The position numbers and the translations under genes were made by a program. Positions 14,139 to 64,000 of a DNA stretch of 64,000 bases are shown one piece after another. The stretch spans positions 124,001 through 188,000 of the forward strand of contig JAEUOU010000005.1 in the NCBI GenBank assembly GCA_016790575.1, read 5' to 3'. Source of the DNA: Burkholderiaceae bacterium (GTDB taxonomy: Bacteria > Pseudomonadota > Gammaproteobacteria > Burkholderiales > Burkholderiaceae_C). The notes beneath the pieces were generated by a model that was not told the DNA's origin, did not search any database, and was given only the letters and a program-made list of their open reading frames with translations. Each line of letters begins with the position of its first letter. Position 1 is the stretch's first letter.

Positions 14139-15050
14139 TCAGAAAAAAATGGCTTCACCGCCCGATGCCGAGGCCGGGCGGGCGGCGGGTGGTGGTACGG
14201 TCAGCGGGGGCAGCATCGTGCTGCGCCCACGGGCGCCACCGGGGACCGGCGCGGGGGCCGCTGGCGCAGGAGCCGCTGCGACCGGTGACGGCGCGGCAGG
14301 AGCCGGCACAGGCGGTTTCAACAGGCCATACAGCTGCATCACCGTTTGCACATAGTTGCGGGTTTCAGGGTACTCGGGAATGCGGTTGCCGGCGCGCGCT
14401 ACCGCGCCCTCACCCGCGTTGTAGGAGGCCAGCACCAGTTCGGTCTGTCCGGGATAGCGCCGCAGCAGGTATTGCAGATAGCGCGCGCCCGCGCCGATGT
14501 TGATTCGTGGATCGGTCAGCTTGGATTCGACCGAGCCGGCGCGGTCGGCGGCAACGCCAAAACGCTGCGCGGTGGCCGGCATCAGTTGCATCAGCCCGAT
14601 TGCGCCGCGCGGCGAGACGGCTTGGGGGTCGAATCCGGATTCGGTTGCAATCACCGCTTTCAGCAGGGCGTAGTCCAGGCCATGCCGATCCGACGCTTCC
14701 CGCAGCAGGTAGCGCACCGCCTTGTAACCGGGCGCAATGTCCAGATAAGCCAGCAGGCGGTTCTGGGCCCGCAGGGGTGAGTTCTCCGATTCGGGCTCGA
14801 CTACCGGTGCGCTGGCCACCGGGGCTGGCGCCGCGCCTGGCAATCCCGGCACCACAGCTGCCGGCGCGGCACGCCAGAACAGTTCGTAGCGGCTGTCAAG
14901 GCGTTCCGCCGCAAAACGGGGAACGCCCCTCTCGTCGACAAAGGCCCAGACGTCGGCACGGGACAGCCCCGAGCTCATCAGCAGCCAGACCCCGAGGAAA
15001 ACCCACCCACCGCGGCAGGCGTGCCGCTCAGATGTCAATTTCCACGGCAT
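14139..15050 (-). CDS. Lytic transglycosylase (SLT domain) between parE and parC
   Basis: 303 residues. A signal sequence is visible ([18 protein letters not shown], about residues 15-32), followed by the SLT core: [20 protein letters not shown] with the catalytic Glu, then [11 protein letters not shown] and YNAGEGAV. The tail (about 245-303) is Pro/Ala-rich. It cleaves peptidoglycan glycan strands in the periplasm. The ATG at 15050 lies inside the end of parE (23-base overlap) and has GGAGG ten bases upstream, which supports this start. It sits in one unit with parE and parC, so a cell-wall enzyme is co-expressed with the chromosome decatenation enzyme. Confidence 0.93.
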
Positions 15051-17007
15051 CGCCGTGAACCTCCATCAACTCCCGCCGGGCAGCCGCTTCCCCCTTGCCC
15101 ATCAACTGGGTCATCAGCGCTTCAGTCCGGGCCAGTTCCCCCTCGCCGACTCGCACCGGCAGCAGGCGTCTGGTGTCCGGGTTCAGGGTGGTCTCCCACA
15201 GCTGCTCGGCACTCATTTCGCCCAAGCCCTTGAAGCGGCTGATGCTCCAGGCGCCTTCCCGTACGCCGTCCTTGCGCAGCTTGTCCAGAATCGCGCCCAA
15301 TTCCGCTTCATCCAGCGCATACAGCTTGGCGGCGGGTTTCTTCCCGCGTGCTGGCGCGTCGACCCGGTACAGCGGTGGCCGGGCCACGAACACATGGCCG
15401 GCCTCGATCAGGCGGGGAAAATGGCGGAAGAACAAGGTGAGCAGCAGAACCTGGATGTGTGAGCCATCCACATCGGCGTCCGACAGGATGCACACCTTGC
15501 CGTAGCGCAGGCCGGAAAAATCGACGCTGTCCTGCGGACCGTGCGGATCGACACCGATCGCCACGGCGATATCGTGTATTTCCGTGTTGGCGAACAGGCG
15601 ATCCCGCTCCACCTCCCAGGTGTTGAGGACTTTGCCGCGCAATGGCAAGACGGCCTGGCACTCCTTGTCGCGCCCCATCTTGGCGCTGCCGCCAGCCGAG
15701 TCGCCCTCAACCAGGAAAACTTCGTTGTGACGGATGTCCCGGCTTTCGCAGTCGGTCAGTTTGCCCGGCAACACCGCCACGCCCGAGCCCTTGCGCTTTT
15801 CCACCTTCTGCCCGGCCCGCTGCCGCGTCTGGGCGGCCTTGATGACCAGTTCAGCGAGTTTGCGCCCGTGTTCGACATGCTCGTTCAGCCACAACTCGAG
15901 CGCCGGCCGCACGAAACCGGAGACCAGACGTACCGCATCGCGGGAGTTCAGTCGCTCTTTGATCTGACCCTGAAATTGCGGGTCCAGCACTTTGGCCGAC
16001 AGCACATAACTGGCGCGGGCAAAAACGTCCTCCGGCATGAGTTTGACGCCCTTGGGCAGCAGGGAATGCAGATCGATGAACCCTTTGACGGCCTGGAAAA
16101 GACCGTCGCGCAGGCCGCTGTCATGGGTGCCACCGGCGCTGGTGGGAATCAGGTTGACGTAGCTTTCGCGGATCACGCCCCCCTCTTCGGTGAAGGCCAC
16201 CGCCCAGGCCGCACCTTCGCCATCGGCAAAACTGTCGCTGGTACCGTCGGCGTAGGCTTGCCCATCGAACAAGGGGATCAGCGGATCAGCCGCCAGGCTT
16301 TGCACCAGATAGTCGGCCAAGCCGCCTTTGTACTGCCAGCTTTGGGTTTCGCGGGTCTTTTCATGGGTAAGGGACACCATGACTCCCGGCATCAGCACCG
16401 CCTTGCTGCGCAGAAGGTGGGTCAGTTCAGCCAGGGGCAAGGTCGCGGACTCGAAATACCGCGCATCCGGCCAGACCCGCACTGTGGTGCCCTGACGGCG
16501 ATCGCCTTCGGCGCTGCCGTTGCTGGGCCGCACCTGCAGCGGTTCGATGACATCACCACCGGAAAACACCAGCCGGGCAACTTGCCCGTCGCGGTAGCTG
16601 GTTGCTTCCAGGCGGGTCGCCAGCGCATTGGTAACCGATACCCCCACCCCGTGCAGGCCACCGGAGAAGCTGTAGGCCCCCCCCTTGCCTTTGTCGAACT
16701 TGCCGCCCGCGTGCAGTCGGGTGAACACCAGCTCGATCACCGGAGCGTTCTCCTCCGGGTGCATTCCGAACGGAATGCCACGGCCGTCGTCTTCGACACT
16801 CACCGAACCATCGGCATGGACGACGACCTTGACCTTTTTGCCAAAACCGGCGAGCGCCTCGTCGGCGGCGTTGTCCAGCACTTCCTGTATGACATGCAGC
16901 GGGTTGTCGGTGCGGGTATACATCCCCGGGCGCTGTTTGACGGGCTCCAGGCCCTTCAGCACCCGGATCGAGCCTTCGGAATATTCGCTGGTGGGTTTGA
17001 CTGCCAT
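15028..17007 (-). CDS. parE: DNA topoisomerase IV subunit B
   Basis: 659 residues. The GHKL ATPase domain has VLDNAADEALAGFGK and DDGRGIPFGMHPEE, and the TOPRIM region has EGDSAGGSAKMGRD and DADVDGSHI. It supplies ATP turnover for topoisomerase IV. The start MAVKPTSEYSEGSI at 17007 matches the family; the longer reading from 17052 adds 15 unlikely residues. No ribosome-binding site is visible, but TACAAT lies eight bases before the ATG. The 3' end overlaps the transglycosylase gene by 23 bases. Confidence 0.94.
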   Translation of the reverse strand: MAVKPTSEYSEGSIRVLKGLEPVKQRPGMYTRTDNPLHVIQEVLDNAADEALAGFGKKVKVVVHADGSVSVEDDGRGIPFGMHPEENAPVIELVFTRLHAGGKFDKGKGGAYSFSGGLHGVGVSVTNALATRLEATSYRDGQVARLVFSGGDVIEPLQVRPSNGSAEGDRRQGTTVRVWPDARYFESATLPLAELTHLLRSKAVLMPGVMVSLTHEKTRETQSWQYKGGLADYLVQSLAADPLIPLFDGQAYADGTSDSFADGEGAAWAVAFTEEGGVIRESYVNLIPTSAGGTHDSGLRDGLFQAVKGFIDLHSLLPKGVKLMPEDVFARASYVLSAKVLDPQFQGQIKERLNSRDAVRLVSGFVRPALELWLNEHVEHGRKLAELVIKAAQTRQRAGQKVEKRKGSGVAVLPGKLTDCESRDIRHNEVFLVEGDSAGGSAKMGRDKECQAVLPLRGKVLNTWEVERDRLFANTEIHDIAVAIGVDPHGPQDSVDFSGLRYGKVCILSDADVDGSHIQVLLLTLFFRHFPRLIEAGHVFVARPPLYRVDAPARGKKPAAKLYALDEAELGAILDKLRKDGVREGAWSISRFKGLGEMSAEQLWETTLNPDTRRLLPVRVGEGELARTEALMTQLMGKGEAAARRELMEVHGDAVEIDI

Positions 17008-17015
17008 GGCCGCGG

Positions 17016-17021
17016 ATTGTA
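17016..17021 (-). promoter_or_regulatory. -10-like hexamer TACAAT, 8 bases before parE start
   Basis: On the minus strand TACAAT is followed by eight bases and the parE ATG. It would drive the parE/transglycosylase/parC unit with almost no 5' leader. Confidence 0.45.
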
Positions 17022-17160
17022 CGCGCGGCAGCCGACTTTTCTGTATGTCCATACAGCCCGACCGTCACCTCAGGGCGCTGATGCGCCAGGCGCATCAATC
17101 GGCGCGGCGCAATTCATCGCAAAGCCTCCGCTGCGGTCTGCAGGAAAGTCGGGCCTCCAG

Positions 17161-58363: not shown

Positions 58364-60772
58364 TCACGCCTGCGGGCCCTCCGCAGCGCCCGGCGCCGCC
58401 CCGCCCCACCACCCCGGCAGCAGCGCGCGCACCTCGCGGCGGGCGAAGCGCTGGTCCAGCAGCCAGAGGGTGCCGCGGTCGTCGGGGGTGCGGATGACAC
58501 GGCCGGCGGCCTGCACCACCTTCTGCAGGCCGGGGTAGAGGTAGGTGTAGTCGTAGCCACGGCCGGGAAAACGGGCCTCCAGGCGCTGGCGCATCTGCTC
58601 GTTCACCGGGTTGACCTGGGGCAGGCCCAGGGTGGCGACGAAGGCGCCGATGAGCCGGTCACCGGGCAGGTCGATGCCTTCGGCAAAGGCGCCGCCCAGC
58701 ACCGCAAAGCCGATGCCGCGCCCGCCGGGTGTGAAGCGGGCCAGAAACGCCTCACGGGCCGGCTCGTCCATCGCGCGCTGCTGGGCAAAGGCGGGGATGT
58801 CCGGGTGTGCCGCGGCCAGCGCGTCAAACACCTGCTGCAGATACTCGTAGCTGCTGAAAAACGCCAGGTACTGCCCCGGCGCCTGCCCGAACTGGCGCGC
58901 CAGCACCGCCACGATGGGCGCGCAGGAGGCGGCGCGGTCCTGCCAGCGGGTGGACAGGCCGGTGGCGACATGCACCGTCAGCTGCCCCGCCGCAAAGGGG
59001 GACGGCACGTCCAGCCAGGCGCTGCGCTCCGGCAGGCCCAGCAGGTCGGCATGCCACTCGCGCGGGCTGAGCGTGGCGGAAAACAGCACGGCCGTGTGGG
59101 CGGCCGCCCAGCGGGGCGCGAGATGCGGCGCCGGCACCACGTTGCGCAGCGTCAGCCGCAGCGGCGGCGGACGGCGCCCGGGCTCGGGTGGCCAGGCCAG
59201 CGTGGCGTCGACCAGGGCGTGCGGCCCGAAGCTCTCGGCCAGGCGCAGAAAGGCCAGCGCGTCGAAGTAAAAGCCCTGCAGGTCCGCCCCGGCCTGTGCC
59301 ACCGAGGCCGGCAGCGTGGGGTGTTCGGCCAGCAGGTCGCTGAGCGCCGCCACCGTGGTGTGCAGGGTGTCCACCAGGCCGTCCGGCAGCGCGTCAAAGG
59401 CCTGGTACGTCCCGGCCAGGCTCCGGCGCAGGTCACCGAGGCGGCGCGAGAGGCGCTCCAGCGGGCGGCGCAGGGCCGGTGGCGCCACCACCCGCAGGCG
59501 GCGCAGCTCGCCGCTGTCCAGGCTGGCGCTGTACATGGCGCGGGCGCGCTCGGTCAGGTTGTGCGCCTCGTCCACCAGCAGGCCGGCGCGCCAGCCCTCC
59601 TGCACGGTGAGCGCGTGCAGCAGTGCCGCGCTGTCGAACCAGTAGTTGTAGTCGCCCACCACCACATCGGCCCAGCGGCTGAGTTCCTGCGCCAGGTAAT
59701 AGGGGCAGACGCTGTGCGCCAGCGCCAGGGTGCGCAGCGCGGCCTTGTCCAGCAAGGTGCCACCAGCACCCTCCACGGCGTCCACGGCGGCCTGGCGGGC
59801 GGTGGGCAGCCGGTCCCAGAAGCCTCGCGCCAGCGGGCAGGATTCGCCGTGGCAGGCTTTGTCCGGGTGTTCGCAGGCCTTGTCGCGGGCGGTGAGCTCC
59901 AGCACCCGCAACGGCAGCGGCGCCTGGCCCGGGCGCTCGCGCAACGAGGCCAGGGCGTCCAGCGCCAGGCGCCGGCCCGGGGTTTTGGCCGCCAGGTAAA
60001 ACACCCGGTCCAGCCCCGGGGCGCTGCCGTCGGCCTTGCGCGGGTCGGGCGGCAGGGCGCGCAGCAGCGGGTACAGCGTGCCCAGCGTCTTGCCGATGCC
60101 GGTGGGCGCCTGCGCCATCAGCACCCGGCCGGCCCGGGCCACGCGGTAGACGGCGCCGGCCAGATCGCGCTGGCCGGCACGGAAGGCGGGCCGCGGAAAC
60201 GCCAGCGCCGCCAGCGCCGCGTCGCGCGCGGCGCGGTGCGCCGCCTCCTGCGCCGCCCAGGCCAGATACCGGCGGCACTGGTCTTCGAAAAACGCCCGCA
60301 GCGCGGGCGCCTCGGCGGTCTCGGTCAGCACCGTTTCGGCCCGGGTGTCGATGTTGAAGTACACCAGCGCCAGTTCCACCTGCTCCAGCCGGTTGGCCTG
60401 GCAGATCAGCCAGCCGTAGACCCGCGCCTGGGCCCAGTGCAGCGCGCGCTGGTTGGCGCTCTGGCGGGCCAGGTCGCCACGGTGGGTCTTGATCTCCTCC
60501 AGCCGGTTGGCGGCCGGGTCCCAGCCGTCGGCGCGGCCGCGCACCCGCAGCGTGCCGAAGTCGGCTGACAGCGGCACCTCGCGCTGGTAGCCCGGGCCGC
60601 GCCGCGCGGTGACGGCGCCGTGTCCCGCCACCCCCTCGGCGCCGGTGGGTGACGGGGTGAAGCGCAGGTCCAGGTCCCCGTGGCGGGCGGTGAATTCACA
60701 CAGCGCGCGCACCGCCACCACCGCCAGCGGGGCGGCGCCGGACAGGGCGCCTGGCGTGTCAGGGGGCATCAC
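58364..60772 (-). CDS. XPD/DinG-type DNA helicase with N-terminal PD-(D/E)XK-like nuclease domain
   Basis: 802 residues. Residues about 30-145 look like a PD-(D/E)XK nuclease domain: Asp82 in RGRADGWD and Glu93-Ile-Lys95 in LEEIKTHRGD. The helicase starts near 195: FRAGQRDLAGAVY (Q-like), Walker A APTGIGKT (222-229), DEAHN, and C-terminal motifs QAAGRVIRTPDDRG. Between Walker A and DEAH four cysteines (CEHPDKACHGESC, VCPYY) fit the 4Fe-4S cluster of XPD-like enzymes. It overlaps by 14 bases the preceding nuclease-like gene. DNA repair is likely; the precise role is unknown. Confidence 0.87.
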   Translation of the reverse strand: MMPPDTPGALSGAAPLAVVAVRALCEFTARHGDLDLRFTPSPTGAEGVAGHGAVTARRGPGYQREVPLSADFGTLRVRGRADGWDPAANRLEEIKTHRGDLARQSANQRALHWAQARVYGWLICQANRLEQVELALVYFNIDTRAETVLTETAEAPALRAFFEDQCRRYLAWAAQEAAHRAARDAALAALAFPRPAFRAGQRDLAGAVYRVARAGRVLMAQAPTGIGKTLGTLYPLLRALPPDPRKADGSAPGLDRVFYLAAKTPGRRLALDALASLRERPGQAPLPLRVLELTARDKACEHPDKACHGESCPLARGFWDRLPTARQAAVDAVEGAGGTLLDKAALRTLALAHSVCPYYLAQELSRWADVVVGDYNYWFDSAALLHALTVQEGWRAGLLVDEAHNLTERARAMYSASLDSGELRRLRVVAPPALRRPLERLSRRLGDLRRSLAGTYQAFDALPDGLVDTLHTTVAALSDLLAEHPTLPASVAQAGADLQGFYFDALAFLRLAESFGPHALVDATLAWPPEPGRRPPPLRLTLRNVVPAPHLAPRWAAAHTAVLFSATLSPREWHADLLGLPERSAWLDVPSPFAAGQLTVHVATGLSTRWQDRAASCAPIVAVLARQFGQAPGQYLAFFSSYEYLQQVFDALAAAHPDIPAFAQQRAMDEPAREAFLARFTPGGRGIGFAVLGGAFAEGIDLPGDRLIGAFVATLGLPQVNPVNEQMRQRLEARFPGRGYDYTYLYPGLQKVVQAAGRVIRTPDDRGTLWLLDQRFARREVRALLPGWWGGAAPGAAEGPQA

Positions 60773-61616
60773 AGGGGGTCAGCGGGGCCTGGGCGCCGTC
60801 GTCGAAGCGGCACGGTGTGCTCTGGGCCAGTGCCATCCAGACCGCCAGCGGCAGCCGCTCCACCGGTCGGCGCGGCGCGGGGCGGGCCACGGTCAGCACC
60901 GCCCCGGCGGCCAGCATCACGCCGCATTCGGGCGGAATGTCGTCCGGCTGGCCGATCGGGCGCCCGCGGGCGTCGGTGCCCAGCACATACCAGCACTCAC
61001 CGCCCATGTCGAGGTAGGCGGCGCGTTTGGCGGGTTTTTTCAGGTCGCCCAGCAGGTCGGCGCGGCGCACCTTGATCTCGTGCACCACCGGGTGCAGGTA
61101 GGCCTCCACCGTGGTGCGGCGGATGGAAAACACATCGGGCATGGCCAGCACCCACTGGCCGGCGGGGGGGTGCGGCGGCGCCAACGGGTCCAGGGGCGCC
61201 GGCGCGTCGGCGGGCTCAGGCGGCGGCACCGGGCGGGTGTCGTCGGGCAGGGGCGCGCCGGGGTCCGCCACCCAGGCGCGCAGGGTCAGGCCGGTCCAGG
61301 CCAGGCGCCCGGCGCGGGTCATCTCGCGGGCGACGGTGTCCACCAGCGCTTCGTGCGCCGAGCGCGCCGCGCGGTTGGTCTGCAGCGAGGCGGCGATCAG
61401 CCGGAGGCCGGCGTCGGTGACCCGCAGGGTTTCATGGCCGCTGGCGGCCGTGACGCGCTGCAGCAAGCCGGCGGCCAGCAGCTCCACCTCCACCAGGTCC
61501 TGGCAGGGCCAGCCGGCCGAGCGGTATACCTCGCGCAGGCGGCGGGCGTGCGCGCGGGTGGGGGCAAAGGCCGGGTGGGCTGCCGTTTGCTGCGGTACCG
61601 CGTCGGGGGATTCCAT
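60759..61616 (-). CDS. Putative nuclease (PD-(D/E)XK-like) with winged-helix N-terminus
   Basis: 285 residues. The N-terminal part (about 20-85) looks like a winged helix (LRVTDAGLRLIAASLQTNRA); a Pro-rich linker (about 120-155) follows. The second half carries MPDVFSIRRTT (Asp161) and HEIKVRRADLLG (Glu180, Lys182), the spacing of a PD-(D/E)XK active site, then KRAAYLDMGGECWYVLG. It may be related to MmcB-type repair nucleases. Its stop overlaps the helicase start by 14 bases, and it starts 18 bases after dedA, all leftward. Function is inferred from motifs only. Confidence 0.72.
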   Translation of the reverse strand: MESPDAVPQQTAAHPAFAPTRAHARRLREVYRSAGWPCQDLVEVELLAAGLLQRVTAASGHETLRVTDAGLRLIAASLQTNRAARSAHEALVDTVAREMTRAGRLAWTGLTLRAWVADPGAPLPDDTRPVPPPEPADAPAPLDPLAPPHPPAGQWVLAMPDVFSIRRTTVEAYLHPVVHEIKVRRADLLGDLKKPAKRAAYLDMGGECWYVLGTDARGRPIGQPDDIPPECGVMLAAGAVLTVARPAPRRPVERLPLAVWMALAQSTPCRFDDGAQAPLTPCDAP

Positions 61617-61634
61617 CGCGGGCAGCCGCCGGGG

Positions 61635-62279
61635 TCAGGCGCTGGCGCGCCGGCTGCCTTTCCAGGCGCCGAACAAGGCGATCAAACCAGGGATGAGAAT
61701 CAGCGCCCAGATGATCTTGCTCAGGTTGGCCTGCACCCAGGGCAGATTGCCGAACCAGTAGCCGGCCAGCGTCAGCCCGACGACCCAGATGAACGCTCCG
61801 ATCACGTTGTAGGCGGTGAACTTGCTGCGGGTCATTTCCGCCACACCGGCCACAAACGGGGCAAAGGTGCGGACGAACGGCATGAAGCGGGCCAGGATGA
61901 TGGTGATGCCACCATAGGTCTCATAGAACTGGTGGGCCTGGTCGAAGGCACGGCGGTTGAAAAAACGCGAGTTCTCCCACTGGAATACCTTGGGCCCGAA
62001 ATACCGTCCGATGGTGTAATTGACCTGATCGCCCAGAATCGCCGCGGCGAGCATCAGGCCGATGGCCAGTTGCACGTCCAGCAGGCCCGCCCCACACAAC
62101 GCGCCGACCACAAACAGCAGCGAGTCACCGGGCAGGAATGGCATCACCACCAGTCCGGTTTCGACAAAGATGATCAGGAACAGCAGGGCATATACCCAGG
62201 CACCGTAGGCCTGCACGAAGGCCTGCAGGTGTTTGTCCACGTGCAAGATGAAGTCAATCAGAAAGGCGGCGATTTCCAT
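61635..62279 (-). CDS. DedA family membrane protein
   Basis: 214 residues with four or more membrane segments. DedA signs: [57 protein letters not shown]. Members help to flip phospholipid or undecaprenyl phosphate and keep membrane potential. It starts with ATG at 62279; GATAAT lies eight bases upstream with no ribosome-binding site. It is the first gene of a leftward group with the nuclease and helicase genes and is divergent from mutL. Confidence 0.92.
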
Positions 62280-62287
62280 GGGCGGCA

Positions 62288-62293
62288 ATTATC
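62288..62293 (-). promoter_or_regulatory. -10-like hexamer GATAAT, 8 bases before dedA start
   Basis: On the minus strand GATAAT, eight bases, then the dedA ATG; no Shine-Dalgarno sequence. Confidence 0.4.
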
Positions 62294-62325
62294 CCCGGCG
62301 CGCCGCGGCGGGCCGCGCCGCCGCC

Positions 62326-62331
62326 TAGAAT
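62326..62331 (+). promoter_or_regulatory. -10-like hexamer TAGAAT, 6 bases before mutL GTG
   Basis: TAGAAT, six bases, then the GTG at 62338. Divergent from the dedA hexamer, with 32 bases between the two boxes. Confidence 0.4.
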
Positions 62332-62337
62332 CCCCGC

Positions 62338-64000
62338 GTGAGCCAAGTCCAAGCCGAACCCGCCGCCCGCCGCCCGATCCGCGAACTGCCCGACGAGCTG
62401 ATCAGCCAGATTGCCGCCGGCGAGGTCATCGAGCGGCCGGCCGCCGTGGTGCGCGAGCTGGTGGACAACGCGCTGGACGCCGGCGCCACCCAGATCACCG
62501 TGCGGTTGCTGGCCGGAGGTGTGCGGCTGGTGGCGGTGGAAGACGACGGCGGCGGCATTCCCCGCGCCGAGCTGCCGGTGGCCCTCAAGCGCCACGCCAC
62601 CAGCAAGATCGGCAACCTGCACGATCTGGAGTCGGTGGCCACGATGGGCTTTCGCGGCGAAGCGCTGGCCGCCATCCATTCGGTGTCCGAGCTGTCGCTG
62701 CTGTCGCGCACCGACGGCGAAGCCAGCGCCTTCCTGCTCGACGGCCGCAGCGGCGAGCTGCGCCCCGCGGCCCGCGCCACCGGCACCACGGTGGAGGTGA
62801 AGGAGCTGTTTTTTTCCACCCCGGCGCGGCGCAAGTTTCTGAAAACCGACGCCACCGAACTGGCCCACTGCATCGAGGCCGTGCGCCGCCACGCGCTGGC
62901 GCGGCCGGACGTGGGGTTTGCCATCTGGCACGAAGGCAAGCTGGCCGAGCAATGGCGCGCCCATCAGGGCCCGGACGCCTTGACCCGCCGCCTGGCCGAT
63001 GTGCTGGGCGAGGATTTCATCGCCGGCTCCATCGCGGTGGACCACTGGGCCGGCCCGCTGCGGGTGAGTGGCCGCGCCGGCCTGCCGGACGCCGCCCGCT
63101 CGCGCGCCGACCAGCAGTTTGCCTATGTCAACGGCCGTTTTGTGCGCGACAAGGTGGTCACCCACGCCGCGCGCAGCGCCTACGAAGACGTGCTGCACGG
63201 CCAGAAACAGCCGGTCTATGTGCTCTACCTGACGATCGACCCGACCCGGGTGGACGTGAACGTGCACCCGACCAAGATCGAGGTGCGTTTTCGCGACAGC
63301 CGCGAGGTGCACCAGGCGGTGCGCCATGCCATCGAAAACGCCCTGGCAGTGCCCCGGGCCCAGGCGCTGGCCGCCACCACCGGCATGGACCGCCCCGCCG
63401 GCCCGCCCGGCACGGTGGCGCCGGCCGCCAGCGGCCCCGAAACACCGGTTTCGGAACAAAAATGGCCGATACCCAGCGTCAAATGGTCACAGTCTGCTAT
63501 CAATCTGGGACCCACCAGCGGCCACCGGGTCTCGGATCTGGACGCTTTGTGGGGCCCACCCCGCGGCGACGCCCCGGCTGACGCCGCCAACGGCGCGGCG
63601 CAGCCGCCCTGGGCGGGCGCGGCACCCGCCGCTGGCGCCGGTGTGGTGACACCACCCTTCCCGCCCGAAACTCCCGCCAGCCCCCCCGCCGACTGGCCGC
63701 TCGGCCGCGCCGTGGCGCAGGTGCATGGTGTGTACATCCTGGCCGAAAACCGGCACGGCCTGGTGCTGGTGGACATGCACGCCGCCCACGAACGCATCCT
63801 GTACGAGCGCCTGAAGCACCAGCTGGACGCCGCGCCGCTGGCCAGCCAGCCGCTGCTGATTCCCGCCACCTTCGCCGCCACCCCGGAAGAAGTGGCCACG
63901 GCCGAGGCCGCCACCGACACCCTGGCGCTGCTGGGCCTGGAGATCACGCCGTTTTCGCCGCGCACCCTGGCGGTGCGGGCCGTGCCGGTGACGCTGGCCC
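62338..64000 (+). CDS. mutL: DNA mismatch repair protein MutL (3' end outside window)
   Basis: 554 residues visible from a GTG start. GHKL ATPase motifs: IAAGEVIERPAAVVRELVDN, EDDGGGIP, ATSKIGNLHDLESVATMGFR followed by GEALAAI, and GTTVEVKELFFSTPARRKFL. The linker begins near 345. In it, residues about 371-389 come from dispersed repeat copy H, read antisense (WPIPSVKWSQSAI). The C-terminal dimer domain starts with LGRAVAQVHGVYILAENRHG and HAAHERILYE and continues past the edge. MutL couples MutS to MutH or to its own nicking activity in mismatch repair. Confidence 0.96.
   Translation, partial: MSQVQAEPAARRPIRELPDELISQIAAGEVIERPAAVVRELVDNALDAGATQITVRLLAGGVRLVAVEDDGGGIPRAELPVALKRHATSKIGNLHDLESVATMGFRGEALAAIHSVSELSLLSRTDGEASAFLLDGRSGELRPAARATGTTVEVKELFFSTPARRKFLKTDATELAHCIEAVRRHALARPDVGFAIWHEGKLAEQWRAHQGPDALTRRLADVLGEDFIAGSIAVDHWAGPLRVSGRAGLPDAARSRADQQFAYVNGRFVRDKVVTHAARSAYEDVLHGQKQPVYVLYLTIDPTRVDVNVHPTKIEVRFRDSREVHQAVRHAIENALAVPRAQALAATTGMDRPAGPPGTVAPAASGPETPVSEQKWPIPSVKWSQSAINLGPTSGHRVSDLDALWGPPRGDAPADAANGAAQPPWAGAAPAAGAGVVTPPFPPETPASPPADWPLGRAVAQVHGVYILAENRHGLVLVDMHAAHERILYERLKHQLDAAPLASQPLLIPATFAATPEEVATAEAATDTLALLGLEITPFSPRTLAVRAVPVTLA
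63448..63505 (-). repeat. Dispersed repeat copy H (in frame, antisense, inside mutL linker)
   Basis: Minus-strand reading: TTGATAGCAG, then TGTGACCATTTGACGCTGGG and TATCGGCCATTTTTG. The reverse orientation is read by mutL without a stop codon, in the flexible linker between the ATPase and dimer domains. Confidence 0.85.

Follow-up and report, generated by a model that had tools for sequence, protein, structure and literature searches.

In human cells, FAN1 helps clear DNA interstrand cross-links, and research on it centres mainly on human disease. The enzyme has a role in interstrand-crosslink repair and cleaves 5' flaps (PMC4103454), and in Arabidopsis FAN1 and the iron-sulfur (Fe-S) helicase FANCJB act in one pathway for mitomycin C resistance (PMC6550410). 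Caulobacter MmcB, an SOS-regulated PD-(D/E)XK nuclease that provides protection from mitomycin C and resistance to cisplatin, has been hypothesised to aid crosslink removal (PMC9578287). The EndoDinG proteins are a subgroup of DinG-like helicases with a shortened Arch domain, a second motor domain that lacks the beta-7 strand, and a nuclease domain reported to be similar to RecE, EXO5, Cas4, AddA, and Dna2 (Cheng 2025, PMC11981726). Here we describe two overlapping genes in a 64,000-nucleotide stretch of a Burkholderiaceae bacterium genome (contig JAEUOU010000005.1, positions 124,001 to 188,000; the window), which encode an EndoDinG-like helicase and a small, unnamed nuclease. The two genes probably form a DNA repair module in which the helicase is paired with the small nuclease in the place of FAN1.

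Both genes are on the reverse strand. The small nuclease gene (P0002, 60759 to 61616) has an ATG start and encodes 285 amino acids (aa) comprising a winged helix, a linker, and a PD-(D/E)XK domain. It is followed by the helicase gene (P0001, 58364 to 60772), which has a GTG start and encodes 802 aa comprising a nuclease domain and an XPD/DinG motor. As the original prediction had noted, the reading frames overlap by 14 bases (60759 to 60772), counting from the GTG, or by 11 if the ATG that directly follows it is the start.

The distribution of the two genes was surveyed in 190 genomes of the family, sampled evenly from a larger group, and the same genomes were searched three times, for the helicase (E value cut-off of 1e-30), the small nuclease (1e-8), and the FAN1 domain VRR_NUC (1e-8). 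Matches were found in 81, 97, and 5 genomes, respectively. Co-occurrence analysis, which the original prediction had proposed, placed both genes in 74 of the 81 helicase-bearing genomes, leaving 7 with the helicase only, 23 with the small nuclease only, and 86 with neither (Fisher P = 1e-23). When the genomes were grouped into 141 genera, the corresponding counts were 53, 6, 19, and 63 (Fisher P = 8e-16), in statistics that ignore phylogeny beyond genus and include no species-tree correction. A first sample of 60 relatives had given 14 genomes with both genes, 3 with the helicase alone, 7 with the small nuclease alone, and 36 with neither.

FAN1 was found where the small nuclease was missing. 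All five VRR_NUC matches lie on the same strand as the helicase match and within 270 bases upstream of it, and none of these genomes contains the small nuclease. FAN1 and the small nuclease therefore occur together in 0 of the 190 family genomes. The five upstream genes are of FAN1 length or aligned along FAN1, and all five FAN1 genera are among the six helicase-only genera, an arrangement with a chance probability of 1.2e-6. VRR_NUC was also sought in 34 genomes with one or both genes, and in those with the helicase but not the small nuclease it was found directly upstream of the helicase in all but two, G166 and G119. In G119, VRR_NUC is on a different contig from the helicase.

Outside the family, FAN1 is the usual partner. 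A class-wide draw of 274 genomes contained the helicase in 10, FAN1_HTH in 12, both in 8, and the two adjacent to each other in 7. The small nuclease was found in four genomes of this draw, the window's own and three others (G230, G322, and G326). FAN1_HTH was present in all eight of the class-draw helicase genomes from outside the family and adjacent in seven. At the level of the order, one genome (G042) has FAN1 adjacent to the helicase and another (G040) has the small nuclease. Overall, 9 of the 10 genomes with the helicase that were examined outside the family have FAN1 as the separate nuclease, and in Burkholderia cenocepacia (NZ_CP091013) FAN1 likewise lies immediately upstream of the helicase gene. 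Four of the adjacent proteins were tested for domain content, and because all four contain VRR_NUC and FAN1_HTH (FANC_SAP was present in three), we regard these neighbors as real FAN1. On the basis of co-occurrence, the exclusion of FAN1, and the adjacency of FAN1 outside the family, FAN1 appears to have been replaced in this family by a non-orthologous protein, the small nuclease, in what would be a module for the repair of interstrand crosslinks or flaps. This exchange of FAN1 for an unnamed nuclease, more than either protein, is the new element. The main text of the EndoDinG paper names no such partner nuclease and contains no occurrence of FAN1, VRR, or MmcB (PMC11981726). Among the papers listed in literature searches, none described a bacterial FAN1-helicase pair or the working partners of FAN1 in bacteria, a result that does not establish absence from print.

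The helicase itself is of an already known kind. Pfam families Helicase_C_2 and DEAD_2 are above the cut-off, the motor motifs GIGKT and DEAH are conserved in an alignment of relatives, and the four Fe-S residues C300, C307, C312, and C356 are cysteine in 89, 86, 90, and 90 of 91 aligned helicases, as expected of the XPD-like Fe-S helicase that the original prediction had recognized. Human FANCJ is among the PDB sequence matches. PDB entry 9kqh, annotated as a 'DNA 5'-3' helicase', aligns to residues 19 to 789, including the N-terminal domain (E = 9e-101). The 9kqh chain has an alanine, natural or engineered, opposite D82, and a literature search for the code 9KQH found nothing. The N-terminal nuclease domain (60203 to 60772, approximately residues 1 to 190, with an approximate boundary) contains D82, E93, and K95, which are invariant in all 90 readable helicases of the 91, the remaining one (G546) being a 9-residue fragment that is unreadable at this motif. 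Q115 and Y119 are likewise invariant in 90 of 90, E65 is glutamate in 89 of 90, and H51 is histidine in 82 of 89 and glutamine in 7, which differs from the EndoDinG description. The window's helicase has the full-length architecture of the EndoDinG proteins, and its H51, E65, D82, E93, K95, and Fe-S cysteines correspond to features described for them (PMC11981726). The match of these residues to the EndoDinG descriptions argues for placing the helicase in that published subgroup.

Pfam family PDDEXK_1 falls just below the cut-off for the window's helicase, and among ten relatives it is above the cut-off in one and unlisted at an E value of 0.01 in nine. An AlphaFold2 model of the N-terminal domain alone, built from two sequences, had a mean pLDDT of 40 and was not used, so the assignment of the fold depends on the 9kqh alignment and PDDEXK_1. 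Judged from this sequence evidence, the helicase N terminus is probably a nuclease domain of the RecB/Cas4 type, in agreement with the PD-(D/E)XK-like domain predicted earlier. Three additional cysteines of this domain, C25, C124, and C166, are retained by 82 to 84 of the 91 relatives and are missing from a distant group (G249, G110, G324, G317, and G119); they could form a second metal site.

The original prediction had compared the pair to end-processing machines, and a module acting at double-strand breaks in the manner of RecBCD or AddAB, with each nuclease cutting one strand, would account for the presence of two nuclease domains. Q115 and Y119, which presumably complete a RecB/Cas4-type motif, and the similarity of EndoDinG nuclease domains to the enzymes listed above are also consistent with this. 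However, the motor is XPD-like rather than RecB-like, and FAN1, which takes the partner position in other bacteria, is a nuclease of 5' flaps and crosslinks (PMC4103454), not an end-resection enzyme. We consider end processing very improbable, and the weaker analogy, since the position of FAN1 and the likeness to MmcB described below point to crosslink or flap repair.

The small nuclease is not recognized by standard domain families, as neither Pfam nor NCBIfam listed anything for it at an E value of 1. D161, E180, and K182, which the original prediction had picked out as a second PD-(D/E)XK-like motif, show no variation in two alignments, of 28 and 23 rows, that share members. AlphaFold2 was run with the 28-row alignment (27 named loci and the window) and returned a model with a mean pLDDT of 69 and a pTM of 0.52. 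The winged helix is confident in this model, while confidence in the nuclease domain is mixed and residues 155 to 169, which include D161, are below a pLDDT of 50. Residues 16 to 102 are MarR-like, with a Z score of up to 9.3, which bears out the predicted winged helix. A Foldseek search of the PDB with the model ranked the MmcB structure 3dnx first (probability of 1.00, E = 1.1e-3), with MarR proteins below it for the N terminus. VIA-align superimposed the model on 3dnx with a Z score of 8.6 over 137 residues and a root mean square deviation of 5.8, barely above the tool's middling level. Structure prediction thus yielded an MmcB-like nuclease fold, with moderate model confidence, and the protein can be described as a MarR-like winged helix at approximately residues 16 to 102, a variable linker, and an MmcB-like PD-(D/E)XK domain.

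Profile comparisons gave the same result. A profile of 23 small nuclease rows had 3dnx as its sole PDB match (E = 0.022), and a profile of four MmcB proteins recognized 3dnx (SPO1766) with an E value of 1.5e-41. In hhalign, the small nuclease was aligned to MmcB with a probability of 91.6 when the MmcB profile contained 21 sequences (21 of 25 loci, four having been dropped by a motif filter), compared to at most 0.63 across 100 column shuffles used as a control. A separate profile-profile comparison with four of the 25 MmcB sequences gave 88.0. The Pfam family of MmcB, PF06319, was matched by 1 of 23 small nuclease relatives (E = 0.013), and a PF06319 search of the whole genome from which the window was taken gave no match at an E value of 10. 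Two other origins were considered and rejected. For a FAN1 or VRR_NUC relationship, the hhalign probability against the FAN1 nuclease domain was 0.04 and Pfam gave no match; for a relationship to the helicase's own nuclease domain, the hhalign probability was 0.08.

These profile and fold comparisons lead us to conclude that the small nuclease is distantly related to MmcB, carries an additional winged helix, and is neither a PF06319 member, as it has no match above the cut-off of that family, nor FAN1. It shares with MmcB (PF06319; 3dnx) an aligned E-x-K and the tyrosine region after it, and differs in its N-terminal MarR-like winged helix, its association with a helicase, and its lack of recognition by PF06319. 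With FAN1 it shares the gene position upstream of the helicase and the joining of a helix-turn-helix (HTH) region to a PD-(D/E)XK nuclease. However, it is 285 aa long, compared to 548 to 586 aa for ten FAN1 open reading frames (ORFs), and VRR_NUC, FAN1_HTH, and SAP are all absent from it. The protein is presumably an active nuclease. Together, these results uphold the coupling of a nuclease-helicase fusion to a second nuclease in the original prediction.

Gene linkage varies among the 74 family genomes that contain both genes. The nuclease gene is directly upstream of the helicase on the same strand in 32, adjacent and divergent in 1, and adjacent and convergent in 2, both from one genus. In a helicase tree of 90 of the 91 sequences (a quick search that omitted G546 and carries a long-branch warning for G119, G317, G324, and G110), a minimum of 10 changes of the adjacency label is required, 6 of them forced by starred, or well-supported, branches, so the linkage has been lost or re-formed several times. 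Of the five family genomes that use FAN1, four fall into a single starred clade, which is joined with a support of 84 to a small nuclease user, and the fifth clusters with a FAN1 user from a different family. When the ORFs around the small nuclease gene were clustered in 46 loci plus the window, no universal neighbor was seen; the widest cluster, excluding the helicase and frames overlapping the nuclease gene, was found in 13 of the 46 loci and the window.

Upstream regions of both genes were examined for a LexA-like box, using an assumed consensus and allowing at most one mismatch. Boxes were found upstream of 34 of 74 small nuclease genes (7 perfect) compared to 9.3% of random windows from the same loci, and upstream of 13 of 50 unlinked helicase genes (5 perfect) compared to 9.5%; duplicates and short flanks were removed from these sets, which include related species. 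One of the 13 helicase boxes is at an impossible position and derives from a locus edge. The signal is weaker for the helicase than for the small nuclease.

Several observations weigh against a joint function of the two proteins. The small nuclease lacks an accompanying helicase match in 23 of its 97 family genomes and in G230, G322, and G326, three of the four class-draw carriers. Inspection of 7 of the 23 showed that one keeps a helicase stub beside the nuclease gene. In the 74 genomes with both genes, the pair is non-adjacent in 39 (different contigs in 29, far apart in 8, and approximately 6 kb apart in 2), although draft assemblies may explain part of the different-contig cases. Two family genomes (G166 and G570) have a helicase with neither partner, in Cupriavidus sp. 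strain EM10 no gene for either nuclease lies within 3 kb of the helicase, and 4 of the 12 class-draw FAN1_HTH genomes have no helicase match. G016, which contains the small nuclease, matches VRR_NUC weakly (E = 3.7e-7) in a 140-aa frame that is too short for FAN1; it is the sole such case among the small nuclease genomes in the 34-genome search. The counts are of matches rather than intact genes, the small nuclease being fragmented in G015, G459, G511, and G569 and some helicases being fragmented as well. Finally, no LexA-like box, even with one mismatch allowed, precedes the window's own pair within 60701 to 62500, and the single nearby match, at 60688, is inside the helicase gene.

Two of the loci deserve separate description. 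In L201 (2059 to 3127), a small nuclease gene matching residues 16 to 285 is followed by a helicase stub matching residues 19 to 77, which suggests loss of the helicase with retention of the nuclease. In L204 (4476 to 5244, genome G015), the small nuclease match is split over two frames, so the gene looks broken or contains a sequencing error. Both genes are matched in G546, a genome of the same genus.

An alternative explanation is that both proteins are SOS-controlled general repair factors that are often neighbors and act in separate pathways, with the exclusion of FAN1 being a lineage effect. The 23 helicase-less genomes and 39 non-adjacent pairs would be expected under this explanation, as would the confinement of FAN1 to five family genomes, four of them in one helicase clade. 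It does not readily account for the rarity of helicases without either nuclease (2 of 81 genomes, or 1 of 59 genera), for adjacency in three orientations, or for FAN1 holding the same position in distant families. We therefore regard separate pathways as unlikely, though a serious alternative to a repair module shared by the helicase and the small nuclease.

The original prediction had left open whether the pair acts in repair or in defense against foreign DNA. A defense system, in which the helicase and nucleases would degrade phage or plasmid DNA, might be suspected from the patchy presence of both genes (81 and 97 of 190 genomes) and from the PADLOC model PDLC01439 (typeIV_DinG), which matches the helicase with an E value of 2.4e-113. 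This match covers the motor only (residues 191 to 788), and because the model matches a chromosomal, repair-type helicase, automatic type IV calls based on PDLC01439 alone may be wrong. The type IV CRISPR protein CasDinG is described as lacking the Fe-S cysteines (pFeS; PMC11981726), which the window's helicase keeps. PADLOC matched no family in the five neighboring genes at an E value of 0.001, in agreement with the original prediction that no other defense genes are nearby, and no csf genes were found among these five, which were the part of the genome searched. At an E value of 1e-5, none of 50,697 phage records matched the small nuclease and 72,556 plasmid records gave four weak matches, and the helicase (1e-50) was found in seven plasmid records, all of them replicons of 1.3 to 3.5 Mb. 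Furthermore, FAN1, the partner used elsewhere, functions in repair. Of the two possibilities, repair is thus the better supported, and we consider a defense role very improbable.

At an E value of 1e-20, the helicase also matched 16 phage-labelled records, of which the 10 listed have 29 to 41% identity and no annotation. Phage carriage was not accepted; the matches listed are remote, and the one record opened is marked unverified. Some contigs submitted as phages of Listeria or Enterococcus (L210 and others) contain a full-length helicase relative of approximately 32% identity and are possibly host DNA. Ten stretches with helicase relatives were checked as viral contigs, and none was confirmed.

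Upstream of the small nuclease gene by 18 bases, on the same strand, is a gene for a DedA-type membrane protein with a VTT domain (61635 to 62288, identified by Pfam). It may be on the same transcript as the pair, but nothing ties it to the module. Beyond it lies mutL, in divergent orientation. The long reading frames seen on the other strand are presumably artifacts of the high G+C content. The closest named loci are from Burkholderiales, including Xylophilus, Polaromonas, Rhizobacter, Roseateles, and others. Elsewhere in the window, a perfect CTGT-N8-ACAG box at 17041 to 17056 overlaps the start of a frame (15028 to 17052) that we take, from reading its sequence, to encode a topoisomerase IV subunit B-like protein. 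The box may be due to chance, since 13 matches with at most one mismatch were found in the window compared to 17 expected.

Because the small nuclease holds the place of FAN1 and resembles MmcB, crosslink or flap repair is the most plausible setting for the module. In the mechanism we propose, the helicase would translocate on DNA, with a polarity that by analogy to the XPD/DinG family would be 5' to 3', and open it at a blocked or branched structure. A separate structure-specific nuclease, FAN1 in other bacteria and the MmcB-like protein here, would then cut one strand close to the lesion, and the helicase's own N-terminal nuclease could trim further. The lesions would most likely be interstrand crosslinks and the flaps or forks that result from them. 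We infer that the two proteins share a pathway, act on crosslinked substrates, and contact each other. Archaeal XPB-Bax1 likewise combines a repair helicase with a separate nuclease and incises forked DNA (PMC7293015), but both the helicase family and the nuclease are different, so this is an analogy only. A literature search found no transposon-fitness papers with cisplatin.

As a more tentative proposal, to which we give somewhat less than even chances, a bacterial crosslink module of FAN1 and an XPD/FANCJ-like helicase may parallel the plant FAN1-FANCJB pair, and in one large family of Burkholderiales FAN1 may have given way to an unrelated, MmcB-like nuclease, which would bind the same helicase and be steered by it. 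The small nuclease represents an unnamed family matched in 97 of 190 family genomes, and the pairing provides a first functional handle on it. As the helicase is rarely found without FAN1 or its one substitute, these bacteria would offer a simple genetic system for the role of the helicase in FAN1-type repair. Furthermore, because an unrelated nuclease apparently does the job, the swap lets one ask which property of FAN1 is essential.

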